Origin: an uncultured Rubrobacteraceae bacterium
GTDB lineage: Bacteria; Actinomycetota; Rubrobacteria; Rubrobacterales; Rubrobacteraceae
Reading direction: 5' to 3'
Length of the DNA: 41,451 bases
NCBI GenBank assembly: GCA_902806065.1
Contig: CADCVE010000036.1
Location: 1 to 41,451, forward strand
Shown: positions 7,486 to 31,234 of the stretch, piece after piece
Layout of the letters: each line of letters opens with the position of its first letter
Numbering within the stretch: the first letter of the stretch is position 1
Translations under genes and position numbers: made by a program
The notes under the pieces: generated by a model
Database searches by the model: none
What the model was told of the DNA's origin: nothing
The model's input: only the letters and a program-made list of their open reading frames with translations

Positions 7486-8847
7486 TTACCTGTTCGGCTC
7501 GTGGGGTGCTTCCCGGTCCAGGCTTCGTTTGACGAGGTAATTTACTACGTACAGGGCGAGCCCGACCAGGAGGAGTATTCCGGCGCGCTGGAATATGGCG
7601 AGCTCTTGCTGGTAGAGCAGGACGAGGATGGTCCCAATGGCGAGGATGGGTATCACAGCAGGGGCGGTAAAGTGGGAGTGGTCCACTCGTTCGCGGCGCA
7701 GAACCAAAACGGAGATGTTTACCACTATAAACACCAGCAATAGTAGTACGACCGTGGTGTTGGCGAGGTCGCCCACGTCGCCAGTGAGGACCAGTCCGAT
7801 CATGATCAGGGCAACGAAGACTATTGCTACCCAGGGCGTGCGCCTCCCTCGATGTACCGTGGTGAATATGCTCGGCATGACGCCCTCGCGGGCCATCCCG
7901 TAGAGGACGCGGGAGCTCATGATCAAGTTCGCCAGAGCCGTGTTGGTAATGGCCACGAGCGCGATCACCGCGAAAAGCTGGGGCGGGAACGCCAGCGGCC
8001 CCTCTGTGAGCACCAAGCGTAGCGGGGCTGACTCTTCCCCTGCAAGCCTCGCGGGGTCCACTATCATCGTTGCTGTGAACGCTACCAGAAGGTACACCAC
8101 GCCCACCAGCGCAATCCCGCCGAAGAGCGCCCGTGGGAAGGTGCGGCTCGGGTTCTCGGTCTCCTCGACAACGTTGACCGAGTCCTCAAAGCCAATCAGA
8201 GCGTAGAATGCCACCGAAGCTCCGGTAAGGACCGCCAGCGGCACTGCCGCCTCGCTCGTAAACTCGAACGGCCGGGTCGGCTCTGCGGTGCCACCGAAGA
8301 GAGCCAGGGCTCCTACTAAGATAATTAGCAAGAGTCCACTCAGTTCGATCAGGGTCAAGACCAAGTTTGTCTTGAGCGATTCGGAGATACCTATAAAGTT
8401 GATGAGTGAGAGTAAGAGTACGAACAAGATAGCTACCAGCAGCGCCGGCAGATTGACGAACTGGCCTAGGTAGTCCCCGCCGAATGCCCGCGCTGCCGCT
8501 CCCGCGCTCGCCAGTCCCGAGCAGATCACCGCGAACGCCACTATGAACGAGAATAGCGGGTTGCGGAACGCCCGGTTAGTATATAGTGCCGCTCCCGCCG
8601 CACCGGGATACTTGGTCACCAGCTCCGCGTAGGCAAAGGCCGTAAGCGCGGCAAGCATAAATGCCACCAGAAACGAGACCCAGACCGCGCCTCCAACCTC
8701 CCCGGCCACGGCACCGACCCGGACGTAGATCCCGGTTCCCAACATATCCCCGATGATAAAGAGCAACAGCAAGCGCGGCCCGATGGCCCTTGCTAGCCCG
8801 CCGCCCTCTCCGACCTGGCTCTCCGGCAACCTCGCTGTATCAGACAT
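7486..8847 (-). CDS. APC-superfamily amino acid permease
   Basis: 453 residues with about twelve hydrophobic segments. Transmembrane helix 1 carries the family motif GDMLGTGIYVRVGAVAGEVG, and helix 6 contains FYALIGFEDSVNVVEETENPSRTFPRA, the usual Gly/Phe-Glu-rich segment of cationic-amino-acid or YhdG-type transporters. It is predicted to import or exchange amino acids by proton symport; the substrate cannot be told. ATG 8847 has GGGGGC upstream and gives a hydrophilic N-terminus of normal length; the reading frame open upstream to 8973 is not needed. Confidence 0.88.
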   Translation of the reverse strand: MSDTARLPESQVGEGGGLARAIGPRLLLLFIIGDMLGTGIYVRVGAVAGEVGGAVWVSFLVAFMLAALTAFAYAELVTKYPGAAGAALYTNRAFRNPLFSFIVAFAVICSGLASAGAAARAFGGDYLGQFVNLPALLVAILFVLLLSLINFIGISESLKTNLVLTLIELSGLLLIILVGALALFGGTAEPTRPFEFTSEAAVPLAVLTGASVAFYALIGFEDSVNVVEETENPSRTFPRALFGGIALVGVVYLLVAFTATMIVDPARLAGEESAPLRLVLTEGPLAFPPQLFAVIALVAITNTALANLIMSSRVLYGMAREGVMPSIFTTVHRGRRTPWVAIVFVALIMIGLVLTGDVGDLANTTVVLLLLVFIVVNISVLVLRRERVDHSHFTAPAVIPILAIGTILVLLYQQELAIFQRAGILLLVGLALYVVNYLVKRSLDREAPHEPNR

Positions 8848-25479: not shown

Positions 25480-25979
25480 GAGGTCGCTGGTTCGCCCGCC
25501 AGGCGGACGGTGAGATCTCGCAGGCGTTCGATAGCCTCGACGACCCCGCGCTCTACCGGCTCGCTCAGGTCCATCCCCAGGCCGCACTCTTTCGGCTGGC
25601 ACCCTAGGATGTACACCTTCGGCGGCAGGATGTCGAGGGCTCGGGCGAGGGTCAGGGCCTGCGAGGGTACCGTCAGGTGCGTATCGGCCAGGAACTCCTG
25701 CCGGCTCTCTTCGGTTAGCTCTTCCTGAGTCGAGACCTCCGCCTCCAGCAGGTACACCGTGCCGGGCGCCTCGCCCCGATCCGCAGCATCCACGATGACG
25801 AGCGCTTCGTAGCCATCCATCAGCTCCTGGACCAGCCCGATACCGGCGATCCCGGACTCGTATACCAGCACGCCCTCCGGCGCCCCGGCCGCCTCGAAGC
25901 AGCGGATGACCGCGATACCGAACCCATCGTCCTGGCGCAGGTCGTTGCCCATCCCGGCCACCAGCACGCGAGGCTTCAC
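25476..25979 (-). CDS. Hydrogenase maturation endopeptidase (HyaD/HycI family)
   Basis: 167 residues. This endopeptidase removes the C-terminal tail of the large subunit once nickel is inserted. The nickel-recognition motif is intact (VAGMGNDLRQDDGFGIAVIR), as are the central Asp (ALVIVDAADRG) and the later His (DTHLTVPSQALTLA). GTG start overlapping the stop of the NifU-Rieske gene (GTGA). It is the better candidate of the two protease-like genes in the operon for actual cleavage. Confidence 0.9.
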   Translation of the reverse strand: MKPRVLVAGMGNDLRQDDGFGIAVIRCFEAAGAPEGVLVYESGIAGIGLVQELMDGYEALVIVDAADRGEAPGTVYLLEAEVSTQEELTEESRQEFLADTHLTVPSQALTLARALDILPPKVYILGCQPKECGLGMDLSEPVERGVVEAIERLRDLTVRLAGEPATS

Positions 25980-26881
25980 TCCGGCCCCACCTCTTCCACC
26001 CCCAGGGCGACCTTCACCTCTCCATCCCGTACCGCAACCGGGAGTACCGATAGCTTTCCTTCGTCATCCTCGCGCTTGCCGGTTCGCAGGTCGTAGCGGC
26101 AGCCGTGCCAGGGGCAGACGAGCGTCCTCCCCTCGACGCGCCCCAGGTGCAGGGTGAGGGCGCTGCCCGGCGGGCAGCCGTCCCGGTAAGCATAGACCTC
26201 ACCGTCCAGACGGATCAGGAGCAGCGACACGTCTTCGAGGCGCCAGGGCTGTAACGCACCCGGCTCCAGGTCCTCCAGTCGTCCCGCCGCAACCCATCGT
26301 GGGCGGCGCAGCGGACGGCGGCCGATCTGGACGATGTTCTTCGGCGGCGGCTCCTCCGCCACCAGCTCCCTGAAGCCCGGGAAACCCTCGCGCAGGGCCT
26401 CTTCGACCACCCGTTGCAGGGTCGTCGCGGTTTCCGGACAACCTTCGCACGAACCAGAGAGACGCACCCGGACACGACCGTTTTCGACGCCAAGGAGATC
26501 CAACTTGCCGCCGTGGGACTGGAAATAGGGATAGACGTCTTCCAGGACACGCTCCACCTGTGTCCGCTCGTCGGCCTCGGGCAGATCGTACATCTCCAGT
26601 AGGGTGCGGACTATCGGGTCTTGAGCGATACGCTCCACGGCCTGCTGGCCGCCGAGGCTAGCGATGAGATCTAGGATGCGTCCAAGCCCCTGCCGGTGCA
26701 GGACGTCTATACCTTCGAGGAAAGCGAAGACCTCTTCGCGGGTCTTCTCGTCCTGTATCTCTTCCATCCGTTCGAGGCCGGTCCCAAGCCACTCCAGAAG
26801 GTGCTGAAACTCTGACGGCAACTCCGGGGTTGGGGTCGAGACCTGTACCACCGGGATCTGTTTCCTGGAGCGGTCGGGCAT
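25976..26881 (-). CDS. NifU C-domain fused to an incomplete Rieske-like domain
   Basis: 301 residues from ATG 26881 (TGATG coupling with the gene before). Order: a helical N-terminal part (about 20-110, LEWLGTGLERMEEIQDEK), a NifU-type Fe-S scaffold domain (about 112-175) with the LSGSCEGCPETATTLQRVVE motif (Cys145, Cys148), and a Rieske-like domain (about 195-300). In the Rieske part the second pair is complete (VCPWHGCRYDL, Cys256/His259), but the first is C-P-P (Cys236, Pro238) instead of C-x-H. A normal 2Fe-2S Rieske cluster therefore lacks one histidine. NifU-Rieske proteins accompany group 1h-type hydrogenases, presumably for Fe-S supply or electron transfer. Confidence 0.8.
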   Translation of the reverse strand: MPDRSRKQIPVVQVSTPTPELPSEFQHLLEWLGTGLERMEEIQDEKTREEVFAFLEGIDVLHRQGLGRILDLIASLGGQQAVERIAQDPIVRTLLEMYDLPEADERTQVERVLEDVYPYFQSHGGKLDLLGVENGRVRVRLSGSCEGCPETATTLQRVVEEALREGFPGFRELVAEEPPPKNIVQIGRRPLRRPRWVAAGRLEDLEPGALQPWRLEDVSLLLIRLDGEVYAYRDGCPPGSALTLHLGRVEGRTLVCPWHGCRYDLRTGKREDDEGKLSVLPVAVRDGEVKVALGVEEVGPE

Positions 26882-27282
26882 CAGTGCCGGGGGCCCAGGG
26901 GAGCAGGCTCTTCGTCCGGGGCACAGTGGACGCAGGCGTCGCGCGAGATGCCCTGGCAGTGCGGGCATTCAGGGCCACATTCACCGTGAGCCGTATCCTG
27001 CAACCCGGAGAACTCGTCGGCGAAGCGGCGGCCGCCCTCCTTCGCGCCGAGCTCGCTCAACCGGTAGCGCCCCCCGGTTTCTTCCAGGTGCCCCTCCTCA
27101 GCGAGGATGTCCAACTGCTCGCGCAACAGGCTCTCGTCCAGGGCCAGGAAGCTGACCAGACTATTCACGTCAGCGTCTTCGCCGAAGCCCTCACCGCGCA
27201 TCCAGTACATCGCCTGCAGGATGTCATCGCGGCAGCGCAAGGCGCTTACTGGGTCGAAGCCTTTGCCGCCGTTGTTGGTCAT
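26881..27282 (-). CDS. Winged-helix-like protein with C-terminal Cys-rich motif
   Basis: 133 residues. The N-terminal 85 look like a winged-helix domain (DDILQAMYWMRGEGFG, LREQLDILAEEGHLEETGGRYRLSELG). The C-terminus carries a compact metal motif: HGECGPECPHCQG...DACVHC, five cysteines with CxxC spacing. A conserved hydrogenase-cluster accessory protein is the best description; a direct regulatory or metal-relay role is inference. ATGA overlap with the gene before, TGATG with the gene after. Confidence 0.65.
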   Translation of the reverse strand: MTNNGGKGFDPVSALRCRDDILQAMYWMRGEGFGEDADVNSLVSFLALDESLLREQLDILAEEGHLEETGGRYRLSELGAKEGGRRFADEFSGLQDTAHGECGPECPHCQGISRDACVHCAPDEEPAPLGPRH

Positions 27283-27803
27283 TTGTTTCGTACCTCCTTG
27301 CGGCCGTTGCCGTTAGGTCCAGGTCTCTCGTGGACTTCGGCCTGGATCCAGGCCACGGTCTCTTCCAACCTCCGCCGGCCGATCTCGCTCATCTCCGAGC
27401 CCCATTCCTGTTCCACCGGTTCAAGCTCTATGACGGTAGTGTCGGAAGGAAGCGCATCGAAGTGCTGCGCGATGATTAGCAAGTTCTCCAGGCTTATAAC
27501 CCCGGTAAGCGCCTCGGAGATACGCTCCTGCACGACTTCGGGGTCAGGCTTGTCGGCGAGCCAGGCGTAGGTGTAGAGGTTGCCGGGCTCCCGGCCTCGC
27601 TCAATGGCCCCGGCGAAGATAGCGCGCTCGAACTTCCTGCCGGGGCTCTCCTCGAACCAGTGCAGGATGGAGATAGGCCCCCAGCCGAAGTCCTCTACGC
27701 AGACATCCTCGGGCCACTCCATCTCCTGCATCCGCTCGATCAAGACCGATCCGAACGAGAGGTCGCTGAGGTGCTGATAGCCGACGCCGGCGACGAGGAT
27801 CAC
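27279..27803 (-). CDS. Hydrogenase maturation protease-like protein, ligand motif degenerate
   Basis: 174 residues from GTG 27803, which overlaps the stop of the large subunit gene by one base. The fold begins like a HyaD/HycI protease (MILVAGVGYQHLSDLSFGSV). The nickel-binding acidic residue of the G-N-x-x-x-x-D-D/E-G-x-G motif is absent (S-D-L-S-F-G). Later blocks (AIFAGAIERGREPGNLYTY; IIAQHFDALPSDTTVIELEP) keep the general layout. It may act as a chaperone for the large subunit rather than as a peptidase. Confidence 0.7.
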   Translation of the reverse strand: MILVAGVGYQHLSDLSFGSVLIERMQEMEWPEDVCVEDFGWGPISILHWFEESPGRKFERAIFAGAIERGREPGNLYTYAWLADKPDPEVVQERISEALTGVISLENLLIIAQHFDALPSDTTVIELEPVEQEWGSEMSEIGRRRLEETVAWIQAEVHERPGPNGNGRKEVRNK

Positions 27804-29704: not shown

Positions 29705-29974
29705 CTATTTCCGTTCCAGTATCCGGCCAACGCCTTCGAGGTGCCGGTCGGTCCCGCGCAGGTCGTCCCGGAGCGCCTTCAGCGCGCCGTTGATAGTCCC
29801 CAGATGCTCCGGCAGCGGCCGGACGTGCCCCTGTGTAGCCTGAAGTCCCCCGACCAGCTTCACCAGGTGCCGATCCGCCTTCCACAGGTAGTAGGCGATC
29901 CCGACCAGATAGACGACCAGCACCAGCACCACTATCGCCACAGCCACCAGCGTCAACAGCGTCAGGATGCTCAT
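29705..29974 (-). CDS. Small one-helix membrane protein 5, type B (hydrogenase cassette)
   Basis: 89 residues: one transmembrane helix (about 4-32, LTLLTLVAVAIVVLVLVVYL) then an amphipathic helical tail (HLVKLVGGLQATQG, HLGTINGALKALRDDLRG, HLEGVGRILERK). It aligns with the tail of the protein at 30275-30589, so these two form a subfamily (B). ATG 29974 overlaps the stop of the gene before (ATGA). Ends 15 nt before the large subunit. It is probably a cytoplasmic-side coiled-coil scaffold or membrane anchor for the otherwise soluble hydrogenase (inference). Confidence 0.75.
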   Translation of the reverse strand: MSILTLLTLVAVAIVVLVLVVYLVGIAYYLWKADRHLVKLVGGLQATQGHVRPLPEHLGTINGALKALRDDLRGTDRHLEGVGRILERK

Positions 29975-30273
29975 CGCGCTCCCCCCGTCCGGTCCTCGAA
30001 CACTCCCTCGATAGCACCGGTTCGCTCCTCGATGGAGCGCGTCGTCTCCAGGATGCCCGTCGCCGTCGAGATGGTCCCTTCCAGCGCCGAAACGTTCTCC
30101 GTGTTGCCGGCGATCCCGACGCCTGCCTGGAGCGCCCGTGCAGCATACCGCTCTATCTGCCGGGCGGCGTTGAGGGCGCGATGCAACAGGTAGACGGCCA
30201 GCGGCAGCACGACCACCACCGCCACGATCAGGGTGGCCCACCAGATCACGTACACAGCCACGGGTATCTCCAC
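29971..30273 (-). CDS. Small one-helix membrane protein 4, type A (hydrogenase cassette)
   Basis: 100 residues from GTG 30273. The N-terminal helix (VYVIWWATLIVAVVVVLPLA) is followed by a helical tail with the type-A pattern IAGNTENVSALEGTISTATG, ILETTRSIEERTGAIEGVF. The same pattern (IA-x-(N/D/E)-T-x-x-I/V, then ILE/VLE-x-A-x-x-I-(E/D)) occurs in the proteins at 30627 and 30926, showing duplication within the operon. Confidence 0.75.
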   Translation of the reverse strand: MEIPVAVYVIWWATLIVAVVVVLPLAVYLLHRALNAARQIERYAARALQAGVGIAGNTENVSALEGTISTATGILETTRSIEERTGAIEGVFEDRTGGAR

Positions 30274-30274
30274 C

Positions 30275-30589
30275 CTAAGCTCCTTCCTGCCGGCTGGCGG
30301 CCTCGATGGTCCGCCCCAGATGATCGTCTATGCTCCGCAAGCCCCCCGCCGCCGCTTCGAGGCTCTCGTTGAGTCGAGTGACCTCCGGGCCGAGGTGGCC
30401 GGTCTGCTGCTCGATGGCCCGGACACCGAAGGCTATCTTGGAGAGGTAACTCGACCGGCTGCTGTATCCCCTCGGTGTGTCGCCGCCGATGCTCTCCAGG
30501 GCGGAGATTATTTGGATCAGGTAGAAGACCAGCGCCCCGAAGAGCACCACCACCGCGAGCGCCGAAAGTATCGCCAGGAGAACTACCAT
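30275..30589 (-). CDS. Small one-helix membrane protein 3, type B (hydrogenase cassette)
   Basis: 104 residues from ATG 30589 (AGGGGGT upstream; the frame is open back to 30649 but the extra part overlaps the gene before). The N-terminal helix VVLLAILSALAVVVLFGALV is followed by SSYLSKIAFGVRAIEQQTGH, RLNESLEAAAGGLRSIDDHL, GRTIEAASRQEG, regularly spaced in heptads. It groups with the protein at 29705-29974. Confidence 0.72.
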   Translation of the reverse strand: MVVLLAILSALAVVVLFGALVFYLIQIISALESIGGDTPRGYSSRSSYLSKIAFGVRAIEQQTGHLGPEVTRLNESLEAAAGGLRSIDDHLGRTIEAASRQEGA

Positions 30590-30626
30590 TTCATACCCCC
30601 TGTCCTCGACCGAGGACGCAGTGCGG

Positions 30627-30929
30627 TCACCCGGGGCAGTCCAGAGCATGTTTCTCGATGGCGGCCGTGGCCCCGTCGATCCCGGCAGCCCGTTCCAGTA
30701 TGTCGTCCACTACCCGGTTCGTGTGGTTCAGGAGCGGGATGTGGATGGTGTTGTTGGCTATTCTCTGCCCAACGGTCCAGATGTCCGAGACCGCCCCGTC
30801 TATTTGCCGGGCGGTACGCAAGATCAGGGTGAGCAACACCGCCACGACCAGGATCACCACCAACCCGATCCCGAGTGACACTAACCATACCGTGTAGCCT
30901 GCCCCCTCGCTCACCAGCGCCAGCGTCAT
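30627..30929 (-). CDS. Small one-helix membrane protein 2, type A (hydrogenase cassette)
   Basis: 100 residues from ATG 30929, overlapping the stop of the gene before (ATGA). Helix at about 14-38 (WLVSLGIGLVVILVVAVLLT), then TARQIDGAVSDIWTVGQRIA, NNTIHIPLLNHTNRVVDDIL, ERAAGIDGATAAIEKHAL. It aligns clearly with the proteins at 29971 and 30926. Confidence 0.75.
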   Translation of the reverse strand: MTLALVSEGAGYTVWLVSLGIGLVVILVVAVLLTLILRTARQIDGAVSDIWTVGQRIANNTIHIPLLNHTNRVVDDILERAAGIDGATAAIEKHALDCPG

Positions 30930-31234
30930 ACCGTACCTCCCCCGCTCGCCGCCCGGTCGCCTTGCAGGGTCCCCGCAACATGGCCCCCGCGCTCCTCGAT
31001 ATGAGTCGCCGCTTCAAGGACTTCTTCGGCGAGCTGGTTAGTATCGTCCAGTTTCCAGATGATCTTCGTGTCCTCGGCGATGGCCTCCGCCGCCGCGAGC
31101 GCCTGCCCTCCATGGGCCAGGATGCGCCGGGCAACGAGCAGAATGGCTATGAGCAGGATCGCGGCGAGAACCACCACGACCGCCGCCACCACGAGGCTCC
31201 AGCCCCATACCGCGTACAGTTGCGCGTCCGTCAC
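30926..31234 (-). CDS. Small one-helix membrane protein 1, type A (hydrogenase cassette)
   Basis: 102 residues from GTG 31234, four bases after the small subunit stop codon begins its spacer. Helix at about 11-35 (WSLVVAAVVVVLAAILLIAI), then ALAAAEAIAEDTKIIWKLDD, TNQLAEEVLEAATHIEERGG. It is the first of the five tandem genes between the small and large hydrogenase subunits and belongs with those at 30627 and 29971. Confidence 0.75.
   Translation of the reverse strand: MTDAQLYAVWGWSLVVAAVVVVLAAILLIAILLVARRILAHGGQALAAAEAIAEDTKIIWKLDDTNQLAEEVLEAATHIEERGGHVAGTLQGDRAASGGGTV

Follow-up and report, generated by a model that had tools for sequence, protein, structure and literature searches.

Five small one-helix membrane proteins (HylTM1-5), encoded between the small and large subunit genes of a [NiFe]-hydrogenase, belong to a wider protein family whose members also adjoin a second type of hydrogenase and form I CO dehydrogenases (CODH). 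This family probably serves as a membrane-coupling module common to trace-gas dehydrogenases, a hetero-oligomeric stalk on which H2 and CO dehydrogenases would dock and gain access to quinone. For high-affinity hydrogenases and aerobic CODHs without membrane helices, the known routes into the respiratory chain, HucM and CoxG, are enzyme-specific. A membrane set common to both enzyme types would indicate a general means of subsisting on trace gases and provide a genetic marker for it, and it makes the coupling question testable in hydrogenase and CODH backgrounds alike.

The window analyzed is the whole stretch of 41,451 nucleotides (uncultured Rubrobacteraceae bacterium, contig CADCVE010000036.1). 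The gene order is HylS, HylTM1-5, HylL, all codirectional, with a protease gene and a NifU-Rieske fusion gene downstream, as follows.

32539-31238, minus strand: HylS, [NiFe]-hydrogenase small subunit (433 aa; no Tat motif, no transmembrane [TM] helix; proximal-cluster motif CDGC)
31234-30926, minus strand: HylTM1 (g1), subfamily A (102 aa, GTG start; one N-terminal TM helix and a helical tail; orthologues at the same place elsewhere)
30929-30627, minus strand: HylTM2 (g2), subfamily A (100 aa, ATG start; 4-base overlap with HylTM1)
30589-30275, minus strand: HylTM3 (g3), subfamily B (104 aa, ATG start)
30273-29971, minus strand: HylTM4 (g4), subfamily A (100 aa, GTG start)
29974-29705, minus strand: HylTM5 (g5), subfamily B (89 aa, ATG start; 4-base overlap with HylTM4)
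29689-27803, minus strand: HylL, [NiFe]-hydrogenase large subunit (628 aa)
27279..27803, minus strand: hydrogenase maturation protease, HyaD/HybD type (TIGR00072, 54.9 bits, above cut-off)
25976..26968, minus strand: NifU-Rieske fusion protein, conserved in Hyl and group 1m-like clusters; a possible electron carrier or maturation factor

As the first-pass annotation had described, the five tandem genes (102, 100, 104, 100, and 89 codons) occupy 31234-29705 between HylS and HylL, each product has one N-terminal hydrophobic segment (best 19-residue Kyte-Doolittle mean, 2.7 to 3.5), and neither a Tat motif nor a membrane helix was found in HylS or HylL. The overlapping starts that it reported hold for g1/g2 and g4/g5, whereas all other junctions are gapped (3, −4, 37, 1, −4, and 15 bases from HylS through HylL). 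Its division of the proteins into two subfamilies in the order A-A-B-A-B stands. Subfamily A is recognizable by BLAST (g1, g2, and g4 mutually alignable at 35 to 38% identity; E, 1e-12 to 1e-15); g3 and g5 gave no mutual BLAST match and are united as subfamily B by profiles built from relatives. Profile-profile comparison of A with B (96%; E, 2e-9) indicates distant kinship, so that a common single ancestor for all five is probable. The window genes matched no Pfam or NCBIfam model above cut-off; against DUF948 (PF06103) they scored 13 to 16 bits (gathering threshold, 37.2 bits), and CODH-linked members reached an E value no better than 0.004.

A scan of genome contigs with HylL returned 26 loci. 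Among those with separated S and L genes, the order A-A-B-A-B was kept wherever the S-to-L stretch was complete (Rubrobacter, Chloroflexota, and Proteobacteria); one Chloroflexota locus (L159) had just four genes between S and L. Single-gene protein identity to three relatives was 45 to 92%, and third-codon-position changes exceeded second-position changes in all three comparisons (3.4 to 1 and 6.2 to 1 in two of them). Given the order conserved across Rubrobacter, Chloroflexota, and Proteobacteria loci and the codon-position bias, the cassette is not a product of chance; its genes are real and under protein-level selection. The C terminus of HylTM2 is Cys-rich in some Chloroflexota and Proteobacteria loci (L010, L015, L016, L017, and L008: CPSCPAC, CPGCPTC, CPSCPTC, CNSCPNC, and CPRCPQQC). 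Only DCPG is left of it in the window and in the majority of Rubrobacter relatives, where a metal site may have been lost. As the CxxCPxC-type end is missing from the window and other Rubrobacter, it is not essential.

Placement of HylTM1-5 between HylS and HylL is a published signature of group 1l [NiFe]-hydrogenases (PMC9561532), and the window, whose gene order is identical, is therefore a member of that known arrangement. The cassette as a new architecture was ruled out for the same reason; a literature search for “HylTM” returned no paper besides PMC9561532, and in the accessible part of its text the two subfamilies, the wider family, and the CODH link do not appear. In a HylL tree (no named group 1l sequence included), the window enzyme fell outside the group 1h references and together with other cassette-bearing hydrogenases, all of which lay on one side of the tree when the group 1h references were used as the outgroup. 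The small-subunit proximal cluster, where readable, was CDGC in cassette-bearing enzymes versus CDGD in group 1h. The five interposed genes, the CDGC motif, and the separate clade rule out a group 1h assignment of the window enzyme.

Further observations concern large subunits. Two loci (L084:3933-5567 and L085:12532-14175), from genomes that also hold a second cassette, encode a deep-branching large subunit (40 to 43% to HylL) with a TM1-TM2-TM3 triplet directly after it. In L157:12600-14700, the large-subunit frame is broken by many frame changes and stops (a pseudogene or sequencing errors). The genome of the window itself holds a 102-codon open reading frame (L002; G000:C20:41947-42135) that matches the C-terminal region of HylL (residues 550 to 614) at 44% identity.

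Profiles of A and B were run against 396 same-phylum genomes, and the coordinates of matches were compared with those of hydrogenase and CoxL matches and with gene maps. The A family was present in 37 and the B family in 46 of the 396 genomes, seven of the latter search having single weak matches only (E, 1e-7 to 1e-4). At least one copy was linked to hydrogenase or CODH genes in 36 of the 37 A-positive genomes; the exception (G393) carries a full set (L086:8826-10830) about 5 kb from rbcL and neighboring genes and less than 2 kb from the contig end. The same five paralogue types, TM1 to TM5, recur in three settings, namely, group 1l hydrogenases, group 1m-like hydrogenases, and form I CODHs. 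Clusters of the second setting (L019 to L025, L089, and L135) have an adjacent S-L pair with a divergent TM1-2-3 and a TM4-5 pair; we call them 1m-like because several of their genes appear to fit the published description of group 1m, an assignment made from that description and not from a reference sequence. The small TM proteins beside them are HylTM homologues.

The cassette is thus not restricted to one hydrogenase type, as the first-pass annotation had considered it might be. Homologues away from hydrogenase genes, which that annotation had named as evidence against its idea of docking or electron delivery, do occur at the CODH loci; because they adjoin another trace-gas dehydrogenase, the idea is generalized and not refuted.

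Five-gene sets without a linked enzyme were seen in L088 and L156, besides the one near rbcL and another (L134) whose nearest hydrogenase is about 29 kb away. At L156:8643-10251, the full TM1-5 set comes after a LysR gene, and genes for GlcD, GlcF, and malate synthase lie about 3 kb and more upstream; other parts of this genome encode a CoxL (56% identical to the query) and, at 43% to HylL, a hydrogenase large subunit. At L134:6015-7302, a set ordered 4-5-1-2-3 lies directly upstream of Mrp-type antiporter genes. These loci are too little for a claim of a third enzyme type, which we rejected, as GlcD and GlcF in L156 are separated from the set by genes on both strands and the L134 set is only upstream of Mrp. 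Longer A/B relatives (about 190 to 350 aa) stand beside short ones at several CODH and hydrogenase loci (L079 to L082, L084, L085, and L087).

At L070 to L078, five-gene sets share an operon with coxM, coxS, coxL, an XdhC/CoxI-like gene, and, in most cases, coxG; coxD and coxE adjoin these operons where the loci extend far enough. Two orders occur, coxM-S-L-I-G-TM4-TM5-TM1-TM2-TM3' and coxG-TM1-TM2-TM3'-TM4-TM5-coxM-S-L. The active-site loop of form I (AYxCSFR, accompanied by CoxM and CoxS) was present as AYRCSFR in 10/10 cassette-linked CoxL proteins examined, and Pfam searches on L077 and L072 confirmed CoxM, CoxS, CoxL, CoxI-like, CoxG, and CoxE. Many of the genomes are metagenome bins, but a binning or assembly artefact is an unlikely source of the CODH link, since L071 lies on a 5.56-Mb contig and nine further loci agree. 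Within the 396-genome survey, the set was present in all 11 genomes with a CoxL of 69% or higher identity to the query and was linked to CoxL in three more (56 to 58% to the query); the other genomes with a form I CoxL showed no set linked to it, and no cassette match was found in four reference CODH loci (Afipia carboxidovorans, Thermomicrobium roseum, Nonomuraea, and Deinococcus) or four reference group 1h hydrogenase loci. Since most form I CODHs of the survey, the four reference CODHs, and group 1h hydrogenases work without the module, quinone coupling does not in general depend on it. Our literature searches, mostly aimed at neighboring topics, found no earlier report of the CODH link, and a published one is possible. 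Two conserved proteins without a Pfam match are encoded beside coxE (L072:8076-8363 and 8360-8797; also in L070, L071, and L075 to L077), pointing towards the CODH-linked cassette.

Profile-profile comparison of hydrogenase-linked with CODH-linked proteins gave 99.2% (E, 2e-19) for A and 99.1% (E, 2e-18) for B. With the TM helix removed, the tails still gave 95.8% and 96.4%, against 1.7% at most in 30 column-shuffled controls, which argues against a match that merely reflects hydrophobic residues. Because these proteins are short, with a biased composition, and the B profile also matches unrelated coiled coils, a coincidental likeness, in which the CODH-linked proteins would be no HylTM homologues and similar by composition, has to be weighed; it is scarcely credible given the tail-only match, the singly recognized paralogue types in fixed order, and the near confinement of matches to trace-gas loci among the 396 genomes. 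In the phylum of the gammaproteobacterial locus, only the seed genome was positive (1/130, the 129 others negative), and the same held for the acidobacterial locus (1/99, the 98 others negative). In that of the Chloroflexi locus, 7 of 171 genomes were positive, five beside a hydrogenase, one with an unlinked full set, and one with a weak single match. Judged by their profiles, the CODH-linked proteins are members of the HylTM family, with homology reaching beyond TM composition. Among these proteins, 14 from B had no NCBIfam match and 20 from A had weak Pfam matches only.

A tree of 165 proteins from the three contexts (Hyl, group 1m-like, and Cox) recovered TM2 of all contexts as one clade (support, 0.99), TM4 across contexts as another (0.96, with one stray TM1 inside), and subfamily B as a third (1.0); TM1 proteins from the Cox and 1m-like contexts grouped together (0.95). 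The CODH-linked TM3' scored best against TM5, yet grouped with 1m-like TM3 in the tree (0.70 to 0.82). Because the TM2 and TM4 clades span enzymes, the paralogue types are older than their spread among enzymes, which argues for a set whose members work together.

Lys and Arg were more numerous after the helix than before it in 96%, 84%, and 98% of proteins, depending on context (2.3 to 2.8 in the 15 residues after the helix; 0.04 to 0.55 before it). This charge pattern suggests an N-out/C-in topology, which would place the tails on the side of the Tat-less hydrogenases and CODH. The helical tails of the first-pass annotation were borne out in single-chain AlphaFold2 models, with a TM helix (2 to 35) and a helical hairpin (45 to 63 and 66 to 103) in HylTM3 (mean pLDDT, 86) and one continuous 93-residue helix (residues 5 to 97) in HylTM4 (mean pLDDT, 91). 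If straight, the HylTM4 helix would extend about 60 residues, or about 90 Å, outside the membrane (arithmetic at 1.5 Å per residue); for Huc, menaquinone transport to 94 Å from the membrane has been reported (PMC10017518), and the likeness of the two lengths, taken from a model, is suggestive only. Mean hydrophobic moments of the tails exceeded those of shuffled tails in every class, although the moments are modest and the sequences not independent. Among PDB entries, the B profile picks up designed antiparallel coiled-coil barrels, which resemble it in heptad pattern but are not kin, and Foldseek against the PDB returned nothing for the B model. No conserved Cys or metal ligands were found in the cassette proteins, which makes them unlike electron carriers themselves; haem or Fe-S electron carriers were ruled out by the lack of conserved Cys.

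[NiFe]-hydrogenase and CODH share neither fold, cofactor, nor maturation route. Both are soluble, cytoplasmic enzymes whose shared need is membrane quinone, and a module common to them would thus most simply serve quinone delivery. We propose that the five paralogues (three A and two B) assemble as one hetero-oligomer, with N termini outside, one helix each across the membrane, and the long amphipathic tails forming a coiled-coil stalk or barrel in the cytoplasm. The tails would provide the docking site for the cytosolic dehydrogenase (HylSL, the group 1m-like SL pair, or CoxMSL with CoxG), whose electrons would reach the quinone pool; quinone itself may travel along the bundle, in line with the proposal for the HucM stalk. 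That one portable five-subunit complex joins both the [NiFe] H2 and the Mo-Cu CO dehydrogenases to the quinone pool via such a stalk, a single device for two unrelated enzyme classes, is a version of this proposal that we hold only tentatively.

Docking or quinone coupling, put forward in the first-pass annotation for this hydrogenase, remains the best explanation and is strengthened by the spread over two unrelated cytosolic dehydrogenases, but the arrangement is neither new nor exclusive to hydrogenases. Counted against coupling were the CoxG already present in CODH operons, the existence of unlinked sets, and the closer score of TM3' to TM5. In the main rival explanation, the cassette only tethers the dehydrogenase and electrons leave by a soluble carrier (NifU-Rieske for the hydrogenase, CoxG for CODH). 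Conservation of the NifU-Rieske gene in Hyl and group 1m-like clusters fits such an anchor, as do the position of CoxG ahead of the cassette in CODH operons, CoxG being a proposed carrier to quinone (PMC13240472), and the scarcity of Cys, which most of the TM proteins lack. Tethering alone gives little reason for keeping five different paralogues, each conserved in its own right, and we rate this explanation as rather unlikely.

Alternatively, the bundle might gather enzyme copies into a large membrane particle, an oligomerization or microdomain scaffold with no direct electron transfer. HucM has such an oligomerizing role, being required for the Huc oligomer (PMC10017518), and the B tails carry the heptad pattern of designed coiled-coil barrels. 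HucM, however, does both jobs, so that scaffolding does not exclude coupling, and it is one gene forming a homotetramer, unlike the five different genes of the cassette; a scaffold by itself seems improbable. More doubtful still, at a very low probability, is a role as assembly or maturation factors needed only during metal cofactor insertion and standing outside the working enzyme. The cassette does stand among maturation genes (the protease, CooC-like ATPases, CoxD, CoxE, and CoxI), but the pathways that assemble [NiFe] and Mo-Cu sites are unrelated, making a shared factor unlikely, and the cassette is missing from reference hydrogenases and CODHs that belong to the same enzyme classes.

Compared with known systems, the nearest solved relative of HylS and HylL is the group 1h hydrogenase HofKG of Cupriavidus (PDB 5AA5), in which S and L are adjacent, there is no TM cassette, and the proximal motif carries Asp (CDGD versus CDGC in the window). 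Group 1m clusters encode two small single-TM proteins of 82 to 92 aa without identifiable domains (PMC9561532); the 1m-like clusters share with them the adjacent S-L pair, a HybD-type protease, and a CooC-type ATPase but have three to five small TM proteins (TM1-2-3, often with TM4-5). CoxG, proposed as an electron route to the quinone pool (cited in PMC13240472), resembles the cassette in being tied to a cytosolic trace-gas dehydrogenase and a proposed quinone link; it belongs to the SRPBCC/COXG family, unrelated to the cassette, and is present in the cox operons here in addition to the five-gene set. HucM was not matched by sequence profile at E values up to 1 (for B, among the best 60 of 131 hits) or by Foldseek against the PDB, in which its stalk, a predicted model, may not be included. 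Both HucM and the cassette are membrane-associated and helical, with amphipathic coiled coils, a cytosolic hydrogenase, and a proposed quinone path, but HucM is one 188-residue protein that forms a homotetramer with peripheral membrane contact, whereas the cassette comprises five proteins with true TM helices.
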